Source of the DNA: Thaumarchaeota archaeon 13_1_20CM_2_39_20
GTDB lineage: Archaea > Thermoproteota > Nitrososphaeria > Nitrososphaerales > Nitrosopumilaceae
Direction of reading: 5' to 3'
NCBI GenBank assembly: GCA_001920395.1
Contig: MNJS01000032.1
Coordinates: 1 to 44,548, forward strand
Length of the DNA stretch: 44,548 bases
Below, in pieces: positions 357 to 40,769 of the stretch (the stretch's first letter is position 1; each line of letters opens with the position of its first letter). The notes under the pieces are model-generated. The model had not been told where the DNA came from. It saw nothing but the letters and a program-made list of their open reading frames with translations, and did no database searches. Position numbers and translations under genes: made by a program.

Positions 357-423
357 AATTTCATTAACTGGTTATACTATGAAGGGCACAAGTGAAAACA
401 AGTACAGACAAAAAGTCTTTTGA

Positions 424-549
424 TTAAGAAAGAATACTGGCAGAAACGAACGCCAGTTTGAGCAAAACCTTTCCAGTACAGATATCCTGCCCAATTGTGA
501 TTCCATCAGCATTCTTGAGAATCCCTCGGACCAGCTTCTGTTTTGTCAT
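424..549 (-). CDS. Small hypothetical protein, 41 aa
   Basis: A short ATG-initiated frame diverges from the PPOX-type gene. The product begins MTKQKLVRGILKNADG, has an IGQDICTGK segment and ends in a hydrophobic stretch. No family is recognised. It is supported mainly by an AT-rich TATA-like stretch about 20 nt before its ATG, shared with the divergent gene, and by the protein-like composition. A longer reading in the same frame overlaps the neighbour antisense and is not favoured. It could be chance. Confidence 0.33.
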   Translation of the reverse strand: MTKQKLVRGILKNADGITIGQDICTGKVLLKLAFVSASILS

Positions 550-560
550 AAACCGCCTAA

Positions 561-571
561 CTTTAATAATT
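561..571. promoter_or_regulatory. Possible bidirectional TATA region
   Basis: The stretch TTTAATAATTT lies about 24 nt before the ATG at 590 on the plus strand and about 17 nt before the ATG at 549 on the minus strand. It is nearly symmetrical, so it could seat TBP in either direction. Leaderless transcription at 590 fits well; the minus-strand spacing is short. Confidence 0.35.
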
Positions 572-589
572 TGGTACCGTGAAGAAAAC

Positions 590-997
590 ATGCAGGTTAA
601 CCGAGAGATTGATGACTTTGTAATACAACTGCTGACAGGAAAGAACTTTGCATTCGTTGCCACTCTTATGAAAGATGGCTCGCCACATATTACCCCGACA
701 TGGATTGATTTTGACGGAAAATCAATTCTAATAAATACAGCAGAAGGTAGGATAAAACAAAAAAACGTATCAAGAGATCCACATGTGGCCATCTCAATTA
801 TTGATCAGAATAATCCATACAACATGGTGACCATAAGAGGGAAAGTGATTGAACAGACATCCAATGGTGCGGACGACCACATTGACAAGCTGGCAAAAAG
901 ATATCTTGGAGTTGACAAGTATCCATTTCGCTCGCAAAATGAGAAAAGAGTTATTCTCAAAGTTCAACCAGAAAAAGTGTTTTACGTGAAACCCTGA
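590..997 (+). CDS. Pyridoxamine 5'-phosphate oxidase-family (PPOX) flavin/F420-binding protein
   Basis: This 135-residue protein has the split-barrel layout of PPOX-class FMN or F420 binding proteins. There is an N-terminal helix (MQVNREIDDFVIQLL), then FAFVATLMKDGSPHITPTW, the usual first strand pair, then a VSRDPHVAISI segment and a VTIRGKV strand. The end, VILKVQPEKVFYVKP, is typical of the short F420-dependent subgroup. Such proteins reduce or oxidise small substrates using bound flavin or F420; the substrate cannot be told here. The ATG at 590 was preferred to an upstream ATG at 458 because the first 44 residues of the longer reading look random and a TATA-like box sits about 24 nt before 590. 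Confidence 0.8.
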   Translation: MQVNREIDDFVIQLLTGKNFAFVATLMKDGSPHITPTWIDFDGKSILINTAEGRIKQKNVSRDPHVAISIIDQNNPYNMVTIRGKVIEQTSNGADDHIDKLAKRYLGVDKYPFRSQNEKRVILKVQPEKVFYVKP

Positions 998-1047
998 ATT
1001 TGAGAAAAAGTAAAAATAGAACATTTTTTAATAATTGATGTCATTAA

Positions 1048-1206
1048 TTGCCTATACCAGAAAAGTGCCCTATCTGCAGAAAAAAATTCACCGAACATTC
1101 AGAACTGCAAAATAAAATTTGCAAAATCATTACAATAAAGGAATTTGCCGCCTACTGCCCTGGTTTTGACATTCAATTCAGGCCTTCATTTGAACTTGAT
1201 CATTAA
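1048..1206 (+). CDS. CPxC zinc-ribbon microprotein, copy 1 (52 aa)
   Basis: A TTG-initiated 52-residue frame. It contains CPICRKKFTEHSE near the N-terminus, a central CKIITIKEFAAYCPGF and a short tail ending FELDH. The four cysteines (about residues 7, 10, 25 and 37) suggest a small zinc-binding fold. A stop codon directly precedes the TTG, so no longer start exists. A near-identical paralogue lies at 35749-35904, and both share the promoter core TTTTAATAATTGATG at a similar distance. Conservation of the protein over about 50 residues between two loci strongly supports it as a real gene. The function is unknown; nucleic-acid or protein binding is a guess. Confidence 0.75.
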   Translation: MPIPEKCPICRKKFTEHSELQNKICKIITIKEFAAYCPGFDIQFRPSFELDH

Positions 1207-1307
1207 CTTGAATGATTCAATCACATACCCAAAAACAGCCCAAGACCATTGGAAGGATATCATATGTCTTATAAGACGTAATCGCACATTATACCACAGA
1301 GGAAAAG

Positions 1308-2861
1308 TTGCAGGAAGATAAAGGGATTAACATTGATAGAATTCTGCTTGAGCATTTTGAGCGAGAGATATGGAGTACGGTTCCTCACTTAGAAAAACCA
1401 GAAGCAAAGGTTGTTAATGCAACACCGCTAGTTGATATTACTGAAGATTTGAGGGAATGTGCAAGAAAAGAGTACGGCCTGAACCTTGCTGATTTAGATC
1501 TGCAAGTTTTCGGCAAGTTTGATTCTAACTTGCTAGCAGGCTCGATAAAAGTAAGGCCGGCAGTCCATATAGTCCACGATGCTATTACCACAGGGAAGCT
1601 TAGACGCGGGCAGACGATATTTGAAGCAACCTCGGGTAACTTTGGAATAGCTCTTGGGCAGGTGGCAAAGCTTGGATTAGATGTCATTACCCTTGTATCA
1701 AGAAAGCTTCAGGAAGGAGTCTTTGAGGAGTTGAGAAACGAGAAAGTACGTACCATGAATCTTGATATGGACATCTGCCCTGCTCCGGGAATGAAGGACA
1801 ACCCGAATCTCTTGGCTGCCAAAGCAACAGCTGCAAATATTCGTTCACAGCTCTCTGAATTTGGGTTTGACCCTGCTATTTTTGATAGATCAAGCTCTGA
1901 GGTCGAAGCACTTCTTGCGAGTCAGGACATAATAAACTTGGCAAAGTTTCTTGCCAAGATCTACGGCGGTTTCTGTCCAGAACAGTACGACAACGAGCTG
2001 AATATCGAGGTACATAGAACTGTGACTGCCGCGGAACTCGACCAGCAATTGCGGGAACAAGGCCAATCGCTTGCCGAATTTCAAATTGTCTGCACCTTTG
2101 GTACAGGTGGCACCTCGGGTGGCCTGAGCAGATACTTGATGGAAAAATATGGCAAAAAGTCGCTACATGTAGTCTTTCCACTTGAGAATCAAGATGTTGC
2201 AGGAATAAGGACAAAAGACAAGGCGGCGGGTTTAAAGTTCTACGAGCCCCAGCGGTATGCGGGACAACATGAAGTAGATTTTTCACAGGCAAAACGTCTG
2301 CTAAAGCTTTTCGTAGAAAAAGGCCACGACATTGGGGAAAGCAGTGCTCTTGCGCTTTATGCGGTGATGCAGATGGCAAACTTTGGTCATGGAGGAAAGT
2401 TTGTCGTAATAATTGCTGATGGAATCCAAAAGTACAGAAAGAACATGGCAACGACAGAGAAGCAGAACCGTCTGCAGGTTAGCCTACAGGAAGCTGTCTC
2501 AGACATAGGCAACTATGACAGAGTTCTCTGGATTCACACACAGTATACTCCACGCAAGGAAGGAATAGAGCTAATTGCAAATTCGCTGGGCGTTGATCAA
2601 AGCAAGATCTCTGTTCCAAAGGCAAGAGATGTGGCGCAACTTCTGGCAACCCAAGAGATTCCAAAAGAATTAGATAGCGCATTGGGAGGAGGGGATGGCA
2701 GGTCATTGCTTGTTTGCATGATGGGAAATACTTCGCTTATGGTTGCCAAAGTACTTGCGGGCAAAGGAATTGTGGCTGAAAGTTTGAATGGCGGAATAAA
2801 CGCACTTTCTCAAGGGAAAGGAAAGCAAATTTCTGAATTGATACGATTAGCTACCGAATAA
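1308..2861 (+). CDS. PLP-dependent cysteine synthase-like enzyme with C-terminal rhodanese-like domain
   Basis: The 517-residue protein starts with a fold-type II PLP domain of the cysteine synthase/threonine synthase kind. GSIKVRPA (about residues 78-85) carries the Schiff-base lysine. EATSGNFGIALG follows as the substrate loop and GTGGTSGG (about 265-272) as the phosphate-binding loop. After about residue 385 comes a separate domain whose LLVCMMGNTSLMVAK and LNGGINAL pattern resembles a rhodanese active-site loop with cysteine. The family typically makes cysteine from O-acetyl- or O-phosphoserine; here the sulfur may come via a persulfide on the added domain, which is inference. The start is TTG at 1308, preceded by GAGG; an in-frame stop at 1272 leaves no upstream ATG, GTG or TTG. 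It sits alone, with no operon partner. Confidence 0.75.
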   Translation: MQEDKGINIDRILLEHFEREIWSTVPHLEKPEAKVVNATPLVDITEDLRECARKEYGLNLADLDLQVFGKFDSNLLAGSIKVRPAVHIVHDAITTGKLRRGQTIFEATSGNFGIALGQVAKLGLDVITLVSRKLQEGVFEELRNEKVRTMNLDMDICPAPGMKDNPNLLAAKATAANIRSQLSEFGFDPAIFDRSSSEVEALLASQDIINLAKFLAKIYGGFCPEQYDNELNIEVHRTVTAAELDQQLREQGQSLAEFQIVCTFGTGGTSGGLSRYLMEKYGKKSLHVVFPLENQDVAGIRTKDKAAGLKFYEPQRYAGQHEVDFSQAKRLLKLFVEKGHDIGESSALALYAVMQMANFGHGGKFVVIIADGIQKYRKNMATTEKQNRLQVSLQEAVSDIGNYDRVLWIHTQYTPRKEGIELIANSLGVDQSKISVPKARDVAQLLATQEIPKELDSALGGGDGRSLLVCMMGNTSLMVAKVLAGKGIVAESLNGGINALSQGKGKQISELIRLATE

Positions 2862-2884
2862 TAGGTATCTAGTAAGACTCGGAC

Positions 2885-2908
2885 TGACTGTCAGTTCAAA
2901 AGCCATCG
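2885..2908 (+). repeat. 24-nt direct repeat B, copy 1
   Basis: TGACTGTCAGTTCAAAAGCC followed by ATCG recurs at 4312-4335 with one mismatch. The two copies bracket the AHSA1 and winged-helix genes. Just downstream, at about 2919, is a half-copy of the stem-loop repeat family seen elsewhere in the window. It has a T-arm-like GTTCAAA core, but no tRNA can be folded around it. Confidence 0.6.
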
Positions 2909-2976
2909 AGTACGGGTATTACAGGACTTGTGTGTCATAATGGTACTAAAATAGAACTCACCAGTCTATATAACAA

Positions 2977-3444
2977 ATGGAATTAAACATCACCAGAATT
3001 TTTGATGCTCAGCGTGATCGTGTGTGGAATGCTTGGACCGATCCAGCGATATTTATGAAATGGTGGGGTCCCAAATACTTTAGTTGCCCTTTAGCCAATC
3101 TTGATCTCAGAATAGGAGGCAAATATCTCGTAGCTATGCGTGGTCCAGACGGCAAGGATTTCTACAGTACCGGTACTTATCGTGAAATAGTTCCGCTGGA
3201 AAAAATTGCAGTAACTGATAGTTTTGCGGACGAAAAAGGAAATGCAGTTCCAGCTTCTTACTACGGAATGGGCGAAACCTTCCCGCGAGAAATGAAAGTT
3301 ACGATTACTTTTGAAGATCATGACGGCAAGACAAAAATGACTTTGAATTATCCTACTACAGAAGGAATAGACACAACAATGCTAGATAACATGAAGCAAG
3401 GATGGAACCAATCTTTTGACAAACTAGCAGAAAGTCTGAAATGA
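2977..3444 (+). CDS. AHSA1/SRPBCC-domain protein
   Basis: This 155-residue protein matches the activator of Hsp90 ATPase homologue 1-like branch of the SRPBCC fold. RIFDAQRDRVWNAWTDPA opens the domain, followed by the hallmark KWWGPK. A LRIGGKYLVAMRGPDGK segment, the tetrad-like FPREMKVTITFEDHDGKTKMTL and the C-terminal helix MKQGWNQSFDKLAESLK complete it. The fold encloses a hydrophobic cavity that binds small lipophilic ligands; the ligand is unknown. The full domain is present from residue 1. No SD is visible, and ACTAAAATA about 29 nt upstream may be its TATA element. It stands between two copies of the 24-nt repeat B. Confidence 0.85.
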   Translation: MELNITRIFDAQRDRVWNAWTDPAIFMKWWGPKYFSCPLANLDLRIGGKYLVAMRGPDGKDFYSTGTYREIVPLEKIAVTDSFADEKGNAVPASYYGMGETFPREMKVTITFEDHDGKTKMTLNYPTTEGIDTTMLDNMKQGWNQSFDKLAESLK

Positions 3445-17957: not shown

Positions 17958-18015
17958 TCCGCCCAAGCTGTTACGTTACAAACGTTTAAGGTTCAAACAA
18001 AAACCCAGATAGGTG

Positions 18016-18261
18016 ATGAGAAGTAACTCACTCTTAAAAAAATACATGTTTGAGCTTAACCGTAAATCTGTAATATTATCAAGCAAGCACAGACTGGTAC
18101 TCTCTCTTCGAACGAAGCTTAGAGACAAGAAACGAAATTATACCGAATATTCCCAGATTCTGGGCTATTTGCAAGAACAAGAAAGAAAGGAGCATCAAAT
18201 CGAAAAACAGTGGTATGGCATTAAGAAGAAAATTACAGAGCTAGAAAAAAAGATAACATAG
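18016..18261 (+). CDS. Small coiled-coil protein
   Basis: An 81-residue, highly charged and basic helical protein. After MRSNSLLKKYMFELNRKS, the segment RLVLSLRTKLRDKKRNYTEY leads into a heptad-like LQEQERKEHQIEKQWYGIKK and KITELEKKI. It is predicted to form a coiled coil along most of its length, so it may work as a dimer or partner subunit. A GTG at 18013 directly precedes the ATG in frame. It converges with the response-regulator gene and is separated from it by a copy of stem-loop repeat A. Confidence 0.45.
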   Translation: MRSNSLLKKYMFELNRKSVILSSKHRLVLSLRTKLRDKKRNYTEYSQILGYLQEQERKEHQIEKQWYGIKKKITELEKKIT

Positions 18262-18338
18262 GGACAATTTCCTTGGATCTAACGTTTGCTCGCATTTACA
18301 ATTGGCTGCTATGAGTTTTGCTGTAAAAAATACGTGTC

Positions 18339-18375
18339 TTACAAGACTACAACCATCAGTGGCTCATACTTGTAA
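18339..18375 (+). repeat. Stem-loop repeat A, copy 2
   Basis: The perfect 7-bp outer arms TTACAAG (18339-18345) and CTTGTAA (18369-18375) enclose ACTACAACCATCAGTGGCTC and ATA, with a possible inner CCA/TGG stem. It lies between the convergent coiled-coil gene and the response-regulator gene. It has the same arms as the copy at 40837. Confidence 0.7.
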
Positions 18376-18430
18376 CAGTTTTTTTTACCGCAGATGGTCT
18401 TCAAGTTTGAATTTCTTATTTGTCAGATGA

Positions 18431-18808
18431 TCAGTTCATCATCATTGATCCAGTACAAGATTTAATGACATCAAGCAGACGGTTTAGATCAATTGGTTTC
18501 TTCAAGCATTTACTAACGCCTCTCATTAACAAATCAGCAAGTTCTTCGTCGGTAACAGCAGATGCTGTTAGAACAATTATTTTCTGTTTTGTTAGCTCGC
18601 CTCGTTTTTCAAGAAATTCTATGACATCAATTCCGCTAATTTCTGGCATAGCCATATCTAGTAGCACAAAATCATAGTTTTTATCCAAAATTTGCTGTAG
18701 TCCCTCTTCTGCATTATTTGAAACGGTACAATCATATCCATGCAGAGTCAGAAATTGGCCCATCATATCAGTGATTTCTGTATTGTCGTCAATCAGCAAA
18801 CCTCTCAT
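18431..18808 (-). CDS. Single-domain response regulator (CheY-like receiver)
   Basis: A 125-residue receiver domain without an output domain. The acidic pair is Asp7-Asp8 (LLIDDN), the phosphoacceptor is Asp51 (FVLLDMAMPEISG), the switch threonine is Thr81 (IIVLTASA) and the conserved lysine is Lys104 (CLKKPID). It is likely phosphorylated by the histidine kinase encoded just upstream on the same strand, and may act by protein contact as CheY or Spo0F do. The ATG at 18808 begins the first strand directly; a TTG 21 nt upstream is possible. It has its own TATA-like ACAATTAAAG about 33 nt upstream, so it may be transcribed separately from the kinase. Confidence 0.88.
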   Translation of the reverse strand: MRGLLIDDNTEITDMMGQFLTLHGYDCTVSNNAEEGLQQILDKNYDFVLLDMAMPEISGIDVIEFLEKRGELTKQKIIVLTASAVTDEELADLLMRGVSKCLKKPIDLNRLLDVIKSCTGSMMMN

Positions 18809-18982
18809 GCCAGCAGCTCCCCAGTCCAAACTCTTTCTTTAATTGTCACGTCTTACGTCTTGAATCAAATCAAAAAAGGATCCGTATGTAAAAAAATAAA
18901 CATACACCAGTTCATTGAAGAGGAATCGCAACTTGGATACACCAAAAGTTTACGAAAAAATCTCTTAAGTAAATTAGTCCAA

Positions 18983-20479
18983 TTATTTTTCTTTTGGAAT
19001 TGTAAAAAAGAAGCTAGTACCTGTTCCAGGTTGACTTTCAAACCATATTTTGCCTCCAAGACCTTCGATTATTCCCTTGCAGACTACCAGTCCAAGGCCC
19101 GTCCCCGCATGCTTTCTTGTAAGCGACGTATCAGCCTGGTAGAATTTTTTAAACATAATTGGTTGCATTTCCTTGGGAATACCTGCGCCATTATCTTTTA
19201 CGTAAAAGACAATCTTGCTATCCTCACTTCTTGCACCGATCTCGATCTTTCCTTGCTTTGCAGGGGTAAAATCTGCAGAGTTAAGAACCAAGTTATCGAT
19301 TACTTGTCTGATTCTGTTCTCATCACTTATTAGAATCAATTTTTCCTCCGTTGAATTTATGGAATCGATTTGTTTTTCTTTCATAAGTGGTAAATAGTCC
19401 CTATGTATCTCTGTCATAAACTCAGTCACATCGATTTTATTTTTATTAAACTTCACGCGACCCATTTCCAGTTTTTGGGCTTCTAACACATCTCGAATTA
19501 ACCGTTCCAATCTTCTAGCGTTTTTATGGATTTTATTGACTGAATCTAATTGAAGGGCGTTAAGATTGCCAAGCAAGCCAGGTGTTTTTAGCATGTCACA
19601 CCTACCCATTATTGGAGTAAGGGGGGATTTGAGCTCATGTGTTATCATCGAAGCAAATTCATCCTTTAATTTATCCAATTTTTTAAGCTCTGCAAATTGC
19701 AGTTCCATTAATGCTTCTTTTTCTATTCTTTTTTTTGCCTCATAAACTGCTGATATGTCTTTTATAATGGTGTTACTTCCTATCAGGCCACCATTTTCAT
19801 CATAAAGATTGTTTGCACTAATGAGGGTTGGGAAAACGGTTCCATCTTTAGTCTTGAGCCAAATTTCTCTATCCTTAACAGTTCCTGTACTTTTCCACGT
19901 TTCAAATGATTTTCTCATAGCTTCGATATTGTTGTCGGCGACATGGTTGAATATGGACACCCCAATAATTTCGTCCTTTGAGTATCCCAAACGCTCAGCA
20001 TACGATTTATTACAACTAATGATGATTCCGTCTGTATCAATTGTACGATACAGAGCTGGCGAGTTTTCATACAAATCTCTGTATTTTTTTTCAGAACGGG
20101 AATAAAGTTTTTGAGACTTTCTTAATGAAGTTACCGTGGATTTGAACGAAATAGCAAGATCATGAACTTCATCATCATTTCCTATGGAATCAATTTTGAA
20201 TTCCGCCTCTCCCCCAGCAATTTTGTTTGCATGGTTTTGGAGATTTCTCATTGGCTTTACTATGGAGCGTCCTATAAGAGCACCCAAACAAATTGCGATA
20301 ATTATAAAAATTGATACGCAAATGAAGATAATCTGTTTGCTAGACCCAAGTAATTTCTGATTATCTAGTGTTATTGGTTCAGTCGCTTTGTCCAATTCAA
20401 TCAAGGAAACATAGCCTAAAGCTCCGATCATTAGAGAAAATAAAGAGAACATAATGGCGATTTTCAGACCGATTTTCAT
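18983..20479 (-). CDS. Sensor histidine kinase (HAMP-PAS-HisKA-HATPase)
   Basis: A 498-residue kinase. Two membrane helices (about 7-27 and 49-71) leave an extracytoplasmic loop of only about 22 residues. HAMP follows (about 72-125), then a PAS domain (about 133-245: YRTIDTDGIIISCNKSYAER, IKDISAVYEA). HisKA has His281 in MITHELKSPLTPIMG. HATPase_c has an N box (IDNLVLNSADFTP), G1 (DNGAGIP) and G2 (GTGLGL). The minimal loop means the signal is probably sensed in the membrane, by the PAS domain, or through the small membrane protein encoded 1 nt upstream. The likely target is the receiver protein encoded downstream. Confidence 0.92.
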   Translation of the reverse strand: MKIGLKIAIMFSLFSLMIGALGYVSLIELDKATEPITLDNQKLLGSSKQIIFICVSIFIIIAICLGALIGRSIVKPMRNLQNHANKIAGGEAEFKIDSIGNDDEVHDLAISFKSTVTSLRKSQKLYSRSEKKYRDLYENSPALYRTIDTDGIIISCNKSYAERLGYSKDEIIGVSIFNHVADNNIEAMRKSFETWKSTGTVKDREIWLKTKDGTVFPTLISANNLYDENGGLIGSNTIIKDISAVYEAKKRIEKEALMELQFAELKKLDKLKDEFASMITHELKSPLTPIMGRCDMLKTPGLLGNLNALQLDSVNKIHKNARRLERLIRDVLEAQKLEMGRVKFNKNKIDVTEFMTEIHRDYLPLMKEKQIDSINSTEEKLILISDENRIRQVIDNLVLNSADFTPAKQGKIEIGARSEDSKIVFYVKDNGAGIPKEMQPIMFKKFYQADTSLTRKHAGTGLGLVVCKGIIEGLGGKIWFESQPGTGTSFFFTIPKEK

Positions 20480-20480
20480 T

Positions 20481-20684
20481 TCATCTCACCAAAGAAGTGA
20501 TCTCTCGAGTAGATGGCTCAGATTCACTTGACACATTTTTTGAAGATAATGTAACCAGAAAAGACAATGATATACTAGACAAAATTATGATAATTCCAGC
20601 CAAGATTTCAACTAGACCAATAATTGTAATACCTAACGGTCTGCTAGGTTTGGAAATAGATGTATGGCCAGATTCATTATTCAT
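20481..20684 (-). CDS. Small membrane protein coupled to the histidine kinase
   Basis: A 67-residue protein with one long hydrophobic segment (GITIIGLVEILAGIIIILSS onward, about residues 18-48), a Pro-rich basic N-terminus (KPSRPLG) and a Ser-rich C-terminus. The RPLGITIIGLVEI start matches a widespread thaumarchaeal membrane-protein module that is usually longer. Its stop is separated from the kinase ATG by one base (TGAAATG), so translation is probably coupled. It may be a sensing or stabilising partner of the kinase. CTATTAGTT lies about 26 nt before the ATG. Confidence 0.6.
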   Translation of the reverse strand: MNNESGHTSISKPSRPLGITIIGLVEILAGIIIILSSISLSFLVTLSSKNVSSESEPSTREITSLVR

Positions 20685-20955
20685 GCATCATAATTTTGTT
20701 CATCAAACTAATAGCGTGAGTATGTATTAGTAAAATACGGACCTGAATTATCTCATTTCCAACTAATCATAACATATGTTATAATCTAGTCACTAGCGAA
20801 ATCCAACGCAAATTTGCTCGTAAAAAGTGGATTCTATTTTTGCAGCTTTACCACGATAGAGATATTTGCTGCCGTGATTCTTGCCTTATCATTTTTCAGG
20901 CAAAAAGAAAAGAAGAGCTATGTTGGCCTAATATCGCGATAAAATCTTTCTAATT

Positions 20956-21729
20956 TCATGATATCTTGATTGAGCAGTATAGGTTCTGCAAGTCAGAGAT
21001 GGAACCCAATTGTGTATCACTTCCAGTTTCTTTCAAGTCCTGTCTTCGTAACAGCACACTTTCCCAGTCCTGTGTGTACCTTTGGGTAACATCCTCTACC
21101 TGGTCTGATGAAAATGAAAGGACATACAGATATTTTTTCCCCCAATTCTTTTCATAGTAGTGCGGGTGGTCTAGAGATGTCGGATAGTCCAGTGTCGAGT
21201 CCACATGAACCCATCTTCCATCTACTATGACCTCGTTCCAACAGTGATCAAGATAGTCTTGAACAATTCTTGATTGATATGATAGCGAGTTGAGGACGGC
21301 TCCAAAGAGTATTGACCACTCCCCGCACCTGCCGATTCTAGAATTGCCAATCTTCAATACCTCATTGTGTCTTGGAAAGTATTGCATGGCACCGCAAAGA
21401 TTGCACGTATAAACCTCTGTCTTTGGTATCTTCCAAGAGTCTCCGATCTCTAGTTTTCTTTGCATAAATCCAGTATCCTTCGCATTATTGGTACCAGAAT
21501 TACAATTTCCGCAAACTAGATTGGCTGGCATCCAGTGCATGAAGCCTTTGAACCACTTTAGTAGGGATTCTAAAGAATCTTCTTGCATGTAGTCGGGAAC
21601 AAGTTTTCTAACTGCATCTAAGGTCTTGGTATCATTGTACTGACTTGTCACATTCCTGTAGAGAAAAAACGAGCTTTTAACTGCATTACCGTTAAAATTA
21701 CAGCTTGCCAAACTATTTCCTATTGTCAC
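20956..21729 (-). CDS. Peptide:N-glycanase (PNGase/Png1)-like transglutaminase-fold protein
   Basis: A 257-residue protein closely patterned on the core of eukaryotic PNGase, which removes N-glycans from misfolded glycoproteins. Zinc ligands are Cys73/Cys76 (CGNC) and Cys109/Cys112 (CNLC). The triad is Cys135 (GRCGEWS), His162 (DHCWNEV) and Asp177 (WVHVDSTLD). Other hallmarks are LLKWFKGFMHW, a FPRHN segment after the second knuckle, YYEKNWGKKYLYVLSFSSDQ and VTQRYTQDW. From memory, yeast Png1 has Cys129/132/165/168 and Cys191/His218/Asp235, so the Cys-to-Cys and Cys-to-His spacings are identical. No signal peptide or PUB/PAW domain is seen, so it looks cytoplasmic. The start is GTG at 21729. 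Action on archaeal N-glycans is inference. Confidence 0.82.
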   Translation of the reverse strand: MTIGNSLASCNFNGNAVKSSFFLYRNVTSQYNDTKTLDAVRKLVPDYMQEDSLESLLKWFKGFMHWMPANLVCGNCNSGTNNAKDTGFMQRKLEIGDSWKIPKTEVYTCNLCGAMQYFPRHNEVLKIGNSRIGRCGEWSILFGAVLNSLSYQSRIVQDYLDHCWNEVIVDGRWVHVDSTLDYPTSLDHPHYYEKNWGKKYLYVLSFSSDQVEDVTQRYTQDWESVLLRRQDLKETGSDTQLGSISDLQNLYCSIKIS

Positions 21730-22719: not shown

Positions 22720-22906
22720 TGATTTTTCAGGGCATAAATTAATATAAAAACAATCTGGCGTTTTGTTACGGAATATCCCTCTTTATCATTATTATTTTCG
22801 TTATATCATTCATTACAGCTTAGTATATAGCCAAATCAACTGCAGTTATCTATAGCTGCTACTGTCATGGGGTTAGCCAAATTTGAACTACAATAACACT
22901 TTTGTT

Positions 22907-24073
22907 ATGAGTTTACTTGAGCTAGACTGTAAATTGGCAAGAAACCTCAATCCCTCTCTGATTCTCGTCATATCATTAGTGATTCTAGTTAGTCTTTCAG
23001 CTAGCGCAATGACTCAGACGCCATCTATTCCAGCCTGGATTAAAAACAACGCAAAGTGGTGGTCAGAAGGACAGATAAAAGATTCTGATTTTACCAAAGG
23101 GATACAGTATCTAATCAACCAAGGAATAATGAAGATATCTGAGGCAAAACCAAGCTCATCTCAATCTCAGGGCATACCATCGTGGATTAAAAACAACGCA
23201 AAATGGTGGTCAGAAGGTCAAATTGATGATTCCGAATTTGTAAAAGGGATACAGTATCTTGTCTCAAATGGTGTTATCGTCGTAGAAACAGTCCAGTGCG
23301 ACCAGATTCTATGGGAGCACGTATACCACCCACAACGCCTCAACATTATAGATCTGTGCACCCAGGTTACTGGAACCATAGAAAACATCAGGGCTGAAAA
23401 AGACGGAGACTATCATATCAGACTAGCGCTAGACCCCAAGTATCATGACATGATAAATCAAGCAAATGTAGATCAGCAACATGGTGATATAGTACTGGAA
23501 ACAATATGCCAAAATCCCATAGAGCAGGTAGATGCAGTGGCATCATGCCAAGACTTTATTGATAATATCGATATTCCACCAGTTGGCACACATGTCAAGG
23601 TGACAGGTTCCTATGTGTTTGATTTAGAACATTCTAGTTGGGCAGAGATTCATCCGGTATCATCAATTGAGGTGATTTTGCAAAATGGTACGACGATATC
23701 TGCAAGTAATACTGGTGCAACTGTACAAAATAATCCCGCAAGCAAACAAAATTCTACAATTGGAACACTGCACATTGATCTTGCAGAACAGGATTACATA
23801 GCGCGAGGAAGTATCCAGTCCATGACAGTTGAGGTAACAGATGGGACAAATCCAGTAAGTGATGCCCCTGTATCAGTGCATGTAATATATGCTTCAGGTA
23901 ATACCACAAAGGACTTTACTGGAACAACTGATTCTGACGGTGCTTTTGAATTATCTTGGAAAATAGGCGGTAACTCGAAACCTGGAACGTTTGAAGTTGA
24001 TATAGATGCAAGTAAAGAAGGCTTTAGTCCAGCACACCAAACTTTCTGGTTTGAAGTAGTCCCTGCAAGTTAA
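22907..24073 (+). CDS. Secreted protein with two IPxWIKNNAKWW repeats, OB-like and Ig-like domains
   Basis: The product has about 388 residues. A signal peptide (NLNPSLILVISLVILVSLSA) is followed by two 34-residue repeats, each with IP.WIKNNAKWWSEGQI.D and F.KGIQYL...GI, the hallmark of many thaumarchaeal surface proteins. Residues about 135-265 form an OB-like domain with CTQVTGTIENI, GDYHIRLALDPKY, IPPVGTHVKVTGSYV and the WAEIHPVSSIEV end. A C-terminal Ig-like domain (VTDGTNPVSDAPVSV, TDSDGAFELSWKIG) ends the protein. It is likely cell-surface; the OB-like part could bind a small polar ligand. The ATG at 22907 was chosen; a TTG at 22883 adds eight residues. Confidence 0.75.
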   Translation: MSLLELDCKLARNLNPSLILVISLVILVSLSASAMTQTPSIPAWIKNNAKWWSEGQIKDSDFTKGIQYLINQGIMKISEAKPSSSQSQGIPSWIKNNAKWWSEGQIDDSEFVKGIQYLVSNGVIVVETVQCDQILWEHVYHPQRLNIIDLCTQVTGTIENIRAEKDGDYHIRLALDPKYHDMINQANVDQQHGDIVLETICQNPIEQVDAVASCQDFIDNIDIPPVGTHVKVTGSYVFDLEHSSWAEIHPVSSIEVILQNGTTISASNTGATVQNNPASKQNSTIGTLHIDLAEQDYIARGSIQSMTVEVTDGTNPVSDAPVSVHVIYASGNTTKDFTGTTDSDGAFELSWKIGGNSKPGTFEVDIDASKEGFSPAHQTFWFEVVPAS

Positions 24074-39560: not shown

Positions 39561-40769
39561 TTGGCTAGATGCAAGATTTGTCATAAAGAGAATGTAGACA
39601 CCATTGATGACTTCTGCATGCAATGCATCACCGAAAATAGAAAGCAACCTCGGAAAAAAAGAGGTGTTGTAAAGATACTAGCTATTGTAATAATTTGTGC
39701 AATTTGTCTATATGGGCTGCAGTATATCATAACGCCGCTTATTACGCCAAATATCCCCAGTGTAAAGGGTTCAGCTCCACAAACAATTGGTCAGATACAA
39801 AGTAAGATATCGGAGCTTGGTGCCTCACTACAAAGTCAGGCAAGCTCTGCCGCAGATTCGCTCAAACCAAAGCCAACTGCCACGCGCGAAGAATTGTATC
39901 AATATGCACTGAGGGTAGTTAACGATGATAGAGCTGCTAAAGGGATTCCTCCTGTAACACTTAGCAATACGCGTTCTGCCCAAGAGCATGCCGATAATAT
40001 GCTAAAGGTACAATATTTTTCACATTGGAATTCAGATGGTCTCAAACCATACGTGACATATACAATGCTTGGAGGTAGGGGTGATGTAAGAGAAAACATC
40101 AGCTACGTGGTGGCTCACTGCTTTTCAGGAAATTGTTACGCTAATGCATTTGATCCGTTAAAGGAAATAAAAGACAGTGAATACAATATGGTGTACCATG
40201 ACGCGTCATCAGACTGGGGCCACAGAGACAATATCTTGGATCCAAGTCATACTGCTGTTAACTTTGGAATAGCGTTTGACAACAATCGTTTCTACTTTGT
40301 TGAACATTTTGAAAACAATATAATCAGTTGGCATGCTGTACAACTAGTCGGAAGCGAACTACATCTCTCTGGGTCATTACCAGCATTATATTCATTATCG
40401 CAAATACTTGTTTACACTGATCCTTCCCCTACCACACTTTCAGCCAATGATCTTGATGGCCGTGCGCCATACAACTTGGGACACTATGATTCAGGAACGC
40501 TTGCAGGCATCATGGCTCCCAAACTTTCACCTGGATATTATTACACAGAGTGTTCACCTGGCAAAATAGAGATCCAGTCTACCAGTGAGAAGAATTGTGT
40601 TGACTATATTACTTTCGAAAATACGAGCAACGCTGCAGACGAAATGGATATGACCGTAAATGTCTCAAAATGGATGGGCTCCGGCATACATACGATTTAC
40701 GTCCAGTTGAAAAAAGCAAACGGAGATGAAACAAGTTCTTCATCTCTTACCATGGAATATTTGAAGTAG
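39561..40769 (+). CDS. Membrane-anchored CAP/SCP-domain protein with N-terminal zinc ribbon
   Basis: A 402-residue protein. A zinc ribbon (Cys4, Cys7, Cys19, Cys22: RCKICHKE, DFCMQC) lies before a membrane helix (about 38-58), so the ribbon is cytoplasmic. After a Ser/Gln-rich stalk comes a CAP/SCP domain (about 110-265) with LYQYALRVVNDDRAAKGIPP, QEHADNMLKVQYFSHW, the typical first histidine, and YHDASSDWGHRDNILDPSHT with HRDN. A beta-rich C-terminal domain has LSPGYYYTECSPGKIEI and an Ig-like end. It is probably displayed outside the cell. The start is TTG at 39561, preceded by GGATGAAG; GATATAAAATG is further upstream. CAP proteins can be proteases or lipid binders; which is not shown. Confidence 0.82.
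   Translation: MARCKICHKENVDTIDDFCMQCITENRKQPRKKRGVVKILAIVIICAICLYGLQYIITPLITPNIPSVKGSAPQTIGQIQSKISELGASLQSQASSAADSLKPKPTATREELYQYALRVVNDDRAAKGIPPVTLSNTRSAQEHADNMLKVQYFSHWNSDGLKPYVTYTMLGGRGDVRENISYVVAHCFSGNCYANAFDPLKEIKDSEYNMVYHDASSDWGHRDNILDPSHTAVNFGIAFDNNRFYFVEHFENNIISWHAVQLVGSELHLSGSLPALYSLSQILVYTDPSPTTLSANDLDGRAPYNLGHYDSGTLAGIMAPKLSPGYYYTECSPGKIEIQSTSEKNCVDYITFENTSNAADEMDMTVNVSKWMGSGIHTIYVQLKKANGDETSSSSLTMEYLK

Follow-up and report, generated by a model that had tools for sequence, protein, structure and literature searches.

The window, that is the whole stretch of 44,548 nucleotides of thaumarchaeal DNA that was analysed, encodes a 257-residue protein (P0001) that is a real catalytic core of the peptide:N-glycanase (PNGase) family, as revealed by its sequence, its zinc and triad anatomy and its predicted fold, with which a split found in the phylogenetic tree agrees. 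Cytosolic peptide:N-glycanase, known as Png1 in yeast and NGLY1 in mouse and human, is the enzyme EC 3.5.1.52. Judging from the sequence and a structural model, P0001 is probably a minimal amidase of the Png1/NGLY1 family, consisting of the catalytic core and most likely hydrolysing the sugar-asparagine amide of N-glycopeptides. Reviews treat cytosolic PNGase as eukaryotic and assign it to the quality control of glycoproteins, where it takes the sugar chains off misfolded proteins. A search of the accessible open full-text literature gave no paper on thaumarchaeal or Asgard homologues of PNGase, prior mention elsewhere being possible; PNGase also goes unmentioned in the papers on N-glycosylation in thaumarchaea and in those dealing with how the eukaryotic pathway arose. 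A small, intact relative of the enzyme is present in soil ammonia-oxidising archaea and lends itself to tests at the bench.

The gene occupies positions 20956..21729 on the minus strand (read 21729-20956), and these are exactly the ends of the open reading frame, which starts with a GTG codon. The extent and the length of 257 residues agree with the earlier note, where the strand was left unstated. The product is a transglutaminase-like core with a zinc-binding insert. The putative zinc-binding segment (residues 73-112; 21394..21513, minus strand) contains the pairs C73/C76 and C109/C112, and the predicted catalytic segment (residues 135-177; 21199..21327, minus strand) contains Cys135 in RCGEW, His162 in DHCWNE and Asp177 in RWVHVD. 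It is followed by a C-terminal segment of the PNGase/Rad4 type (residues 178-218; 21076..21198, minus strand) with a three-residue insert, an invariant W196 and the EDVTQRY motif. All the motifs that had been listed from the letters were found: two CxxC pairs, the RCGEW cysteine, a histidine 27 residues on, the VHVD aspartate and NWGKKYLYVLSFSSDQVEDVTQRY in the C-terminal part of the protein. The Pfam search gave matches to Transglut_core (E 4.7e-10) and, in the C-terminal part, to Rad4 (E 1.1e-6), and no PUB or PAW domain. Membership in the XPC/Rad4 family itself was rejected, the NCBIfam rad4 model scoring 25.7 bits against a cut-off of 400 bits and Pfam giving no beta-hairpin DNA-binding domains. 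No membrane segment or export signal was found in P0001. Comparison with a 90%-identical homologue gave a dN/dS of about 0.20, indicating purifying selection on the gene.

The phmmer search against all PDB sequences retrieved mouse PNGase (2f4m, 4.4e-33) and yeast PNGase (1x3w, 1.1e-27) and no other credible match to P0001. In yeast Png1, the zinc cysteines are C129/C132/C165/C168 and the triad is C191/H218/D235 (PMC9102325, PMC2791212). The spacings between the zinc cysteines, the catalytic cysteine and the histidine are 3/33/3/23/27 in both proteins, which bears out the earlier suggestion that the distances from the knuckles to the catalytic cysteine equal those of yeast Png1; the histidine and aspartate are 15 residues apart in P0001 versus 17 in the yeast enzyme. 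The E-value of 4e-33 and the exact yeast spacings rule out a chance motif match. Among the sequences compared, the zinc insert occurs only in eukaryotic PNGases and in the thaumarchaeal clade.

The AlphaFold2 model of P0001, built from an alignment of 19 archaeal sequences with no eukaryotic rows, has a pLDDT of 88.4 and a pTM of 0.87. It shows the predicted PNGase fold with the Cys-His-Asp residues present. The Foldseek search of the PDB placed four PNGase entries at ranks 1-4 (E 5.7e-15 to 2.6e-13), followed by XPC/Rad4 at 3e-7 and weaker and by plain transglutaminase-like proteins above 1e-3. The TM-scores are 0.57-0.68, which indicates a somewhat different placement of domains, so that what is claimed is a common fold, short of a close superposition. 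The model of a zinc-less relative (L061), made without an alignment, was poor (pLDDT 51) and was set aside.

Homologous genes were found in 11 of the 37 genomes of the window's genus and in 35/70 genomes of another family in the same order (f3); a named match belongs to Ca. Nitrosopolaris wilkensis of the Nitrososphaeraceae. The f3 carriers include the single-contig genomes G383, G476 and G500, whose homologues rule out contamination with eukaryotic DNA. No variation is seen in 42 non-identical zinc-type sequences at the four zinc cysteines, the triad, R154, W164, E166, W173, Y192 and W196. The catalytic cysteine is followed by serine in 27 of them and by glycine in 13, and CSEW replaces CGEW in most f3 members, G500 being an example; the L014 homologue is 57% identical to P0001. 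Genome G589 has three copies (C4, C40, C330), and the matches in G544 (C75), G545 (C42) and G554 (C577) contain in-frame stops, some being probably broken copies; it seems that the gene has often been gained and lost. Among prokaryotes, the zinc-containing form was found in soil thaumarchaea only; the one genome-wide pattern scan was for CGEW[SAC][IN][LC]F, which is blind to CSEW forms. Other families of the phylum possess soluble zinc-less relatives of about 170 residues (L033-L039, group B), which are missing exactly the zinc segment, as well as membrane-anchored zinc-less relatives. No PNGase-like relatives were found in viral contigs and phages, and a viral or plasmid origin was rejected, as there is no viral or phage relative and two plasmid matches are weak and partial. 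The L024 contig (VBPW01000042.1), 4.9 kb long and attributed to a thaumarchaeal MAG, carries a zinc-less PNGase-like gene overlapping the end of a gene for a family-B DNA polymerase (361-3053); this contig may belong to another organism or a mobile element.

The PNGase-like genes of most relatives within the genus, and that of the f3 genome G394, have a convergent neighbour within about 60 bp, encoding a 420-residue MFS transporter, and the same transporter lies near the PNGase-like gene in G571. Transporters of this one subfamily beside PNGase-like genes, in thaumarchaea and in a distant lineage, are exemplified by L014 8748-10055 (minus), L056 7612-9000 (minus) and L063 8052-9299 (plus). Within the genus, the transporter is present in 9/11 genomes with the PNGase-like gene and in 0/26 genomes without it (hypergeometric value about 4e-7, calculated by hand with phylogeny not controlled). 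When the f3 transporter (L056) was compared with 398 genomes of the phylum, the best non-thaumarchaeal match (E 2.4e-59, the next being 2.6e-27) was G437:C1:1427111-1428268, located directly downstream of the zinc-less PNGase-like gene of G437. The orientation of the two genes is tandem in G437 and convergent in the thaumarchaea. Their repeated association suggests that they form a functional pair, maybe one older than the zinc segment. The transporter has decayed in the window's lineage: a 172-residue remnant remains in the nearest relative (L013/G160, L013 8159-8674), and the window lacks the transporter, a histidine kinase and a response regulator (18431-20479) being found there instead, within the region that takes the transporter's place (18013-20956).

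Several other genes of these loci can be mentioned. At most loci of the genus, the PNGase-like gene is accompanied, about 3 kb away, by the gene of a second transglutaminase-like protein, with Transglut_core2 and TPR_9 domains (L014 4572-5396, minus). The window also encodes a secreted-looking protein with repeated IPSWIKNNAKWWSEGQI units (22883-24073, plus), which faces away from the PNGase-like gene and is also present in L013, and a membrane-anchored zinc-ribbon protein with an apparent CAP/SCP-type domain, recognised by eye (39561-40769, plus).

In archaea, N-glycans are joined to proteins on the outer side of the membrane. Because of this extracytoplasmic location, and since P0001 has no membrane segment, a cytoplasmic P0001 would need imported glycopeptides. 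The oligosaccharyltransferase AglB is encoded in 31 of the 37 genomes of the genus, including that of the nearest relative G160; it was not found in the window's own genome, which is 61% complete and contains proteasome genes. In Nitrososphaera viennensis, a member of the same order, the N-glycan, linked to Asn-X-Ser/Thr, is built on a chitobiose-like core, and a storage role has already been proposed for its nitrogen-rich surface glycans (PMC12153357). P0001 would act as a thiol amidase stabilised by zinc and would use the triad Cys135-His162-Asp177 to cleave the sugar-asparagine amide bond of imported glycopeptides, yielding free glycan, aspartate and ammonia. The presumable substrate would be the chitobiose-like N-glycan of surface glycoproteins, either the archaeon's own or those of a neighbour. 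Short glycopeptides may enter the cytoplasm, perhaps via the MFS transporter or a replacement, and the purpose would be turnover and salvage, which suggests a possible route for ammonia oxidisers to recover nitrogen from nitrogen-rich surface glycans. Substrate access is the main weakness of the reading as a PNGase: the MFS transporter may provide import in the relatives, and it is missing in the window.

The sugar-side loop also bears on the predicted activity. In all thaumarchaeal members, three residues are added after the catalytic aspartate relative to the yeast and mouse enzymes, and the sequence there is DST(L/F) versus D(S/A)CE in eukaryotic PNGase. Yeast Glu238 and Trp251 are residues that we take to be chitobiose contacts. 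The equivalent of Trp251 is W196, invariant in the thaumarchaeal zinc-type set; leucine or phenylalanine occupies the position of Glu238, beside the insert. The loop, with three extra residues and no equivalent of Glu238, may fit modified core sugars of these archaea. Together with CSEW in most f3 members, the same differences speak against PNGase activity. It is possible, though doubtful, that P0001 is a thiol amidase, protease or deamidase of the PNGase fold acting on an amide other than that of N-glycans, such as a peptide, glutamine or an amine conjugate. Transglutaminase-like enzymes form a diverse superfamily, the zinc-less and membrane-anchored relatives resemble its general enzymes, and the nearest solved relatives of the neighbouring transporter, 3wdo and NorA, are generic or drug-type MFS transporters. 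However, PNGases are the closest proteins to P0001 by both sequence and fold, far ahead of proteases and transglutaminases, and the identity of the zinc and triad spacing, along with the restricted occurrence of the zinc insert among the sequences compared, speaks against this reading.

The phylogenetic trees were built on 119 core columns with the zinc segment excluded, eukaryotes being represented by two PDB-chain sequences, mouse and yeast. The thaumarchaeal zinc-type sequences form one clade without mouse and yeast (98/97; 98/98 and 99/96 in further trees). The branch uniting thaumarchaea and eukaryotes against groups B and C has a support of 100/99 without the very divergent group D and is weak (82/17, with two eukaryotes) when all rows, including group D, are kept. 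Forcing the eukaryotes together with the zinc-less group B was rejected (p 0.0004). When the two longest rows were dropped and group D was kept, the eukaryotes joined D at 47/0, which is probably a long-branch effect. The split from other archaeal transglutaminase-like proteins agrees with the PNGase-like identity that had been proposed, which the sequence, the zinc and triad anatomy and the predicted fold bear out. Neither finding named beforehand as counter-evidence was made: the predicted structure has the Cys-His-Asp residues, and the closest solved relatives are PNGases and not plain transglutaminase-like proteases.

The earlier note had also supposed that an ancestral form predates eukaryotes. 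The single archaeal clade and the transporter shared with a distant archaeal lineage make this plausible; it is unproven, because the tree had two eukaryotic sequences and Asgard archaea were not directly searched. The opposite direction of transfer, in which soil thaumarchaea obtained the gene from a eukaryote and repurposed it or kept a residual PNGase function, is compatible with PNGase activity and seems unlikely. It would agree with the zinc form being found among prokaryotes in soil thaumarchaea only and with its patchy presence inside genera, and a sample of mouse and yeast cannot test whether the thaumarchaeal sequences nest inside eukaryotes. On the other hand, the thaumarchaeal clade is deep and single, archaea of other families in the phylum have zinc-less relatives, and a eukaryotic gift alone is hard to square with the MFS relative beside the zinc-less PNGase-like gene of G437. 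This neighbour speaks more for an archaeal origin than for a transfer from eukaryotes, and a recent gift is unlikely. A wider scheme can be advanced tentatively: cytosolic PNGase would have begun in archaea, where the thaumarchaeal zinc-type protein, an authentic N-glycanase, would have arisen with its MFS partner from a zinc-less transglutaminase-like ancestor and served in glycopeptide uptake and deglycosylation, salvaging sugar and ammonia; the ERAD enzyme of eukaryotes would have come later from this archaeal line. The occurrence of an archaeal PNGase family in an order with chitobiose-core N-glycans provides a test of archaeal roots for the removal of N-glycans, besides their addition.

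It is very improbable that P0001 is an inactive or structural relative serving for binding and not for catalysis, like XPC/Rad4: the Rad4 models of Pfam and NCBIfam match its C-terminal part and some PNGases of filamentous fungi are inactive (PMC9102325), but all 42 divergent members retain the cysteine, histidine, aspartate and zinc cysteines, as would not be expected after a loss of catalysis, and the dN/dS is about 0.2.

Among known systems, P0001 is closest to the eukaryotic cytosolic PNGase, with which it has in common the Cys-His-Asp triad, two CxxC motifs, the predicted fold and the C-terminal segment W.KK...(A/S)F...DV(T/S).RY. Unlike animal NGLY1 with its PUB and PAW domains, it comprises the catalytic core only; these domains are not required across the family, since a separate C-terminal domain is absent from yeast Png1 (PMC2791212). 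The proteins of the P0001 type also differ from eukaryotic PNGase in belonging to an archaeal host without an ER and in being adjoined by an MFS gene in the relatives. XPC/Rad4 proteins, catalytically inactive relatives of PNGase (PMC10318531), are the second-best fold match and have the C-terminal segment in common with P0001, which differs from them in keeping the triad and in having no DNA-binding domains. Transglutaminase-like proteins of archaea and bacteria with Transglut_core, such as 3isr, a far weaker match (E 0.46 by profile and 2e-3 by Foldseek), belong to the same superfamily and have the same order of the triad, whereas those compared have no zinc insert. Finally, the bacterial PNGase F would cleave the same bond, if the prediction for P0001 is right, with an unrelated fold of two beta-sandwich subdomains and an acidic active site (PMC9102325).
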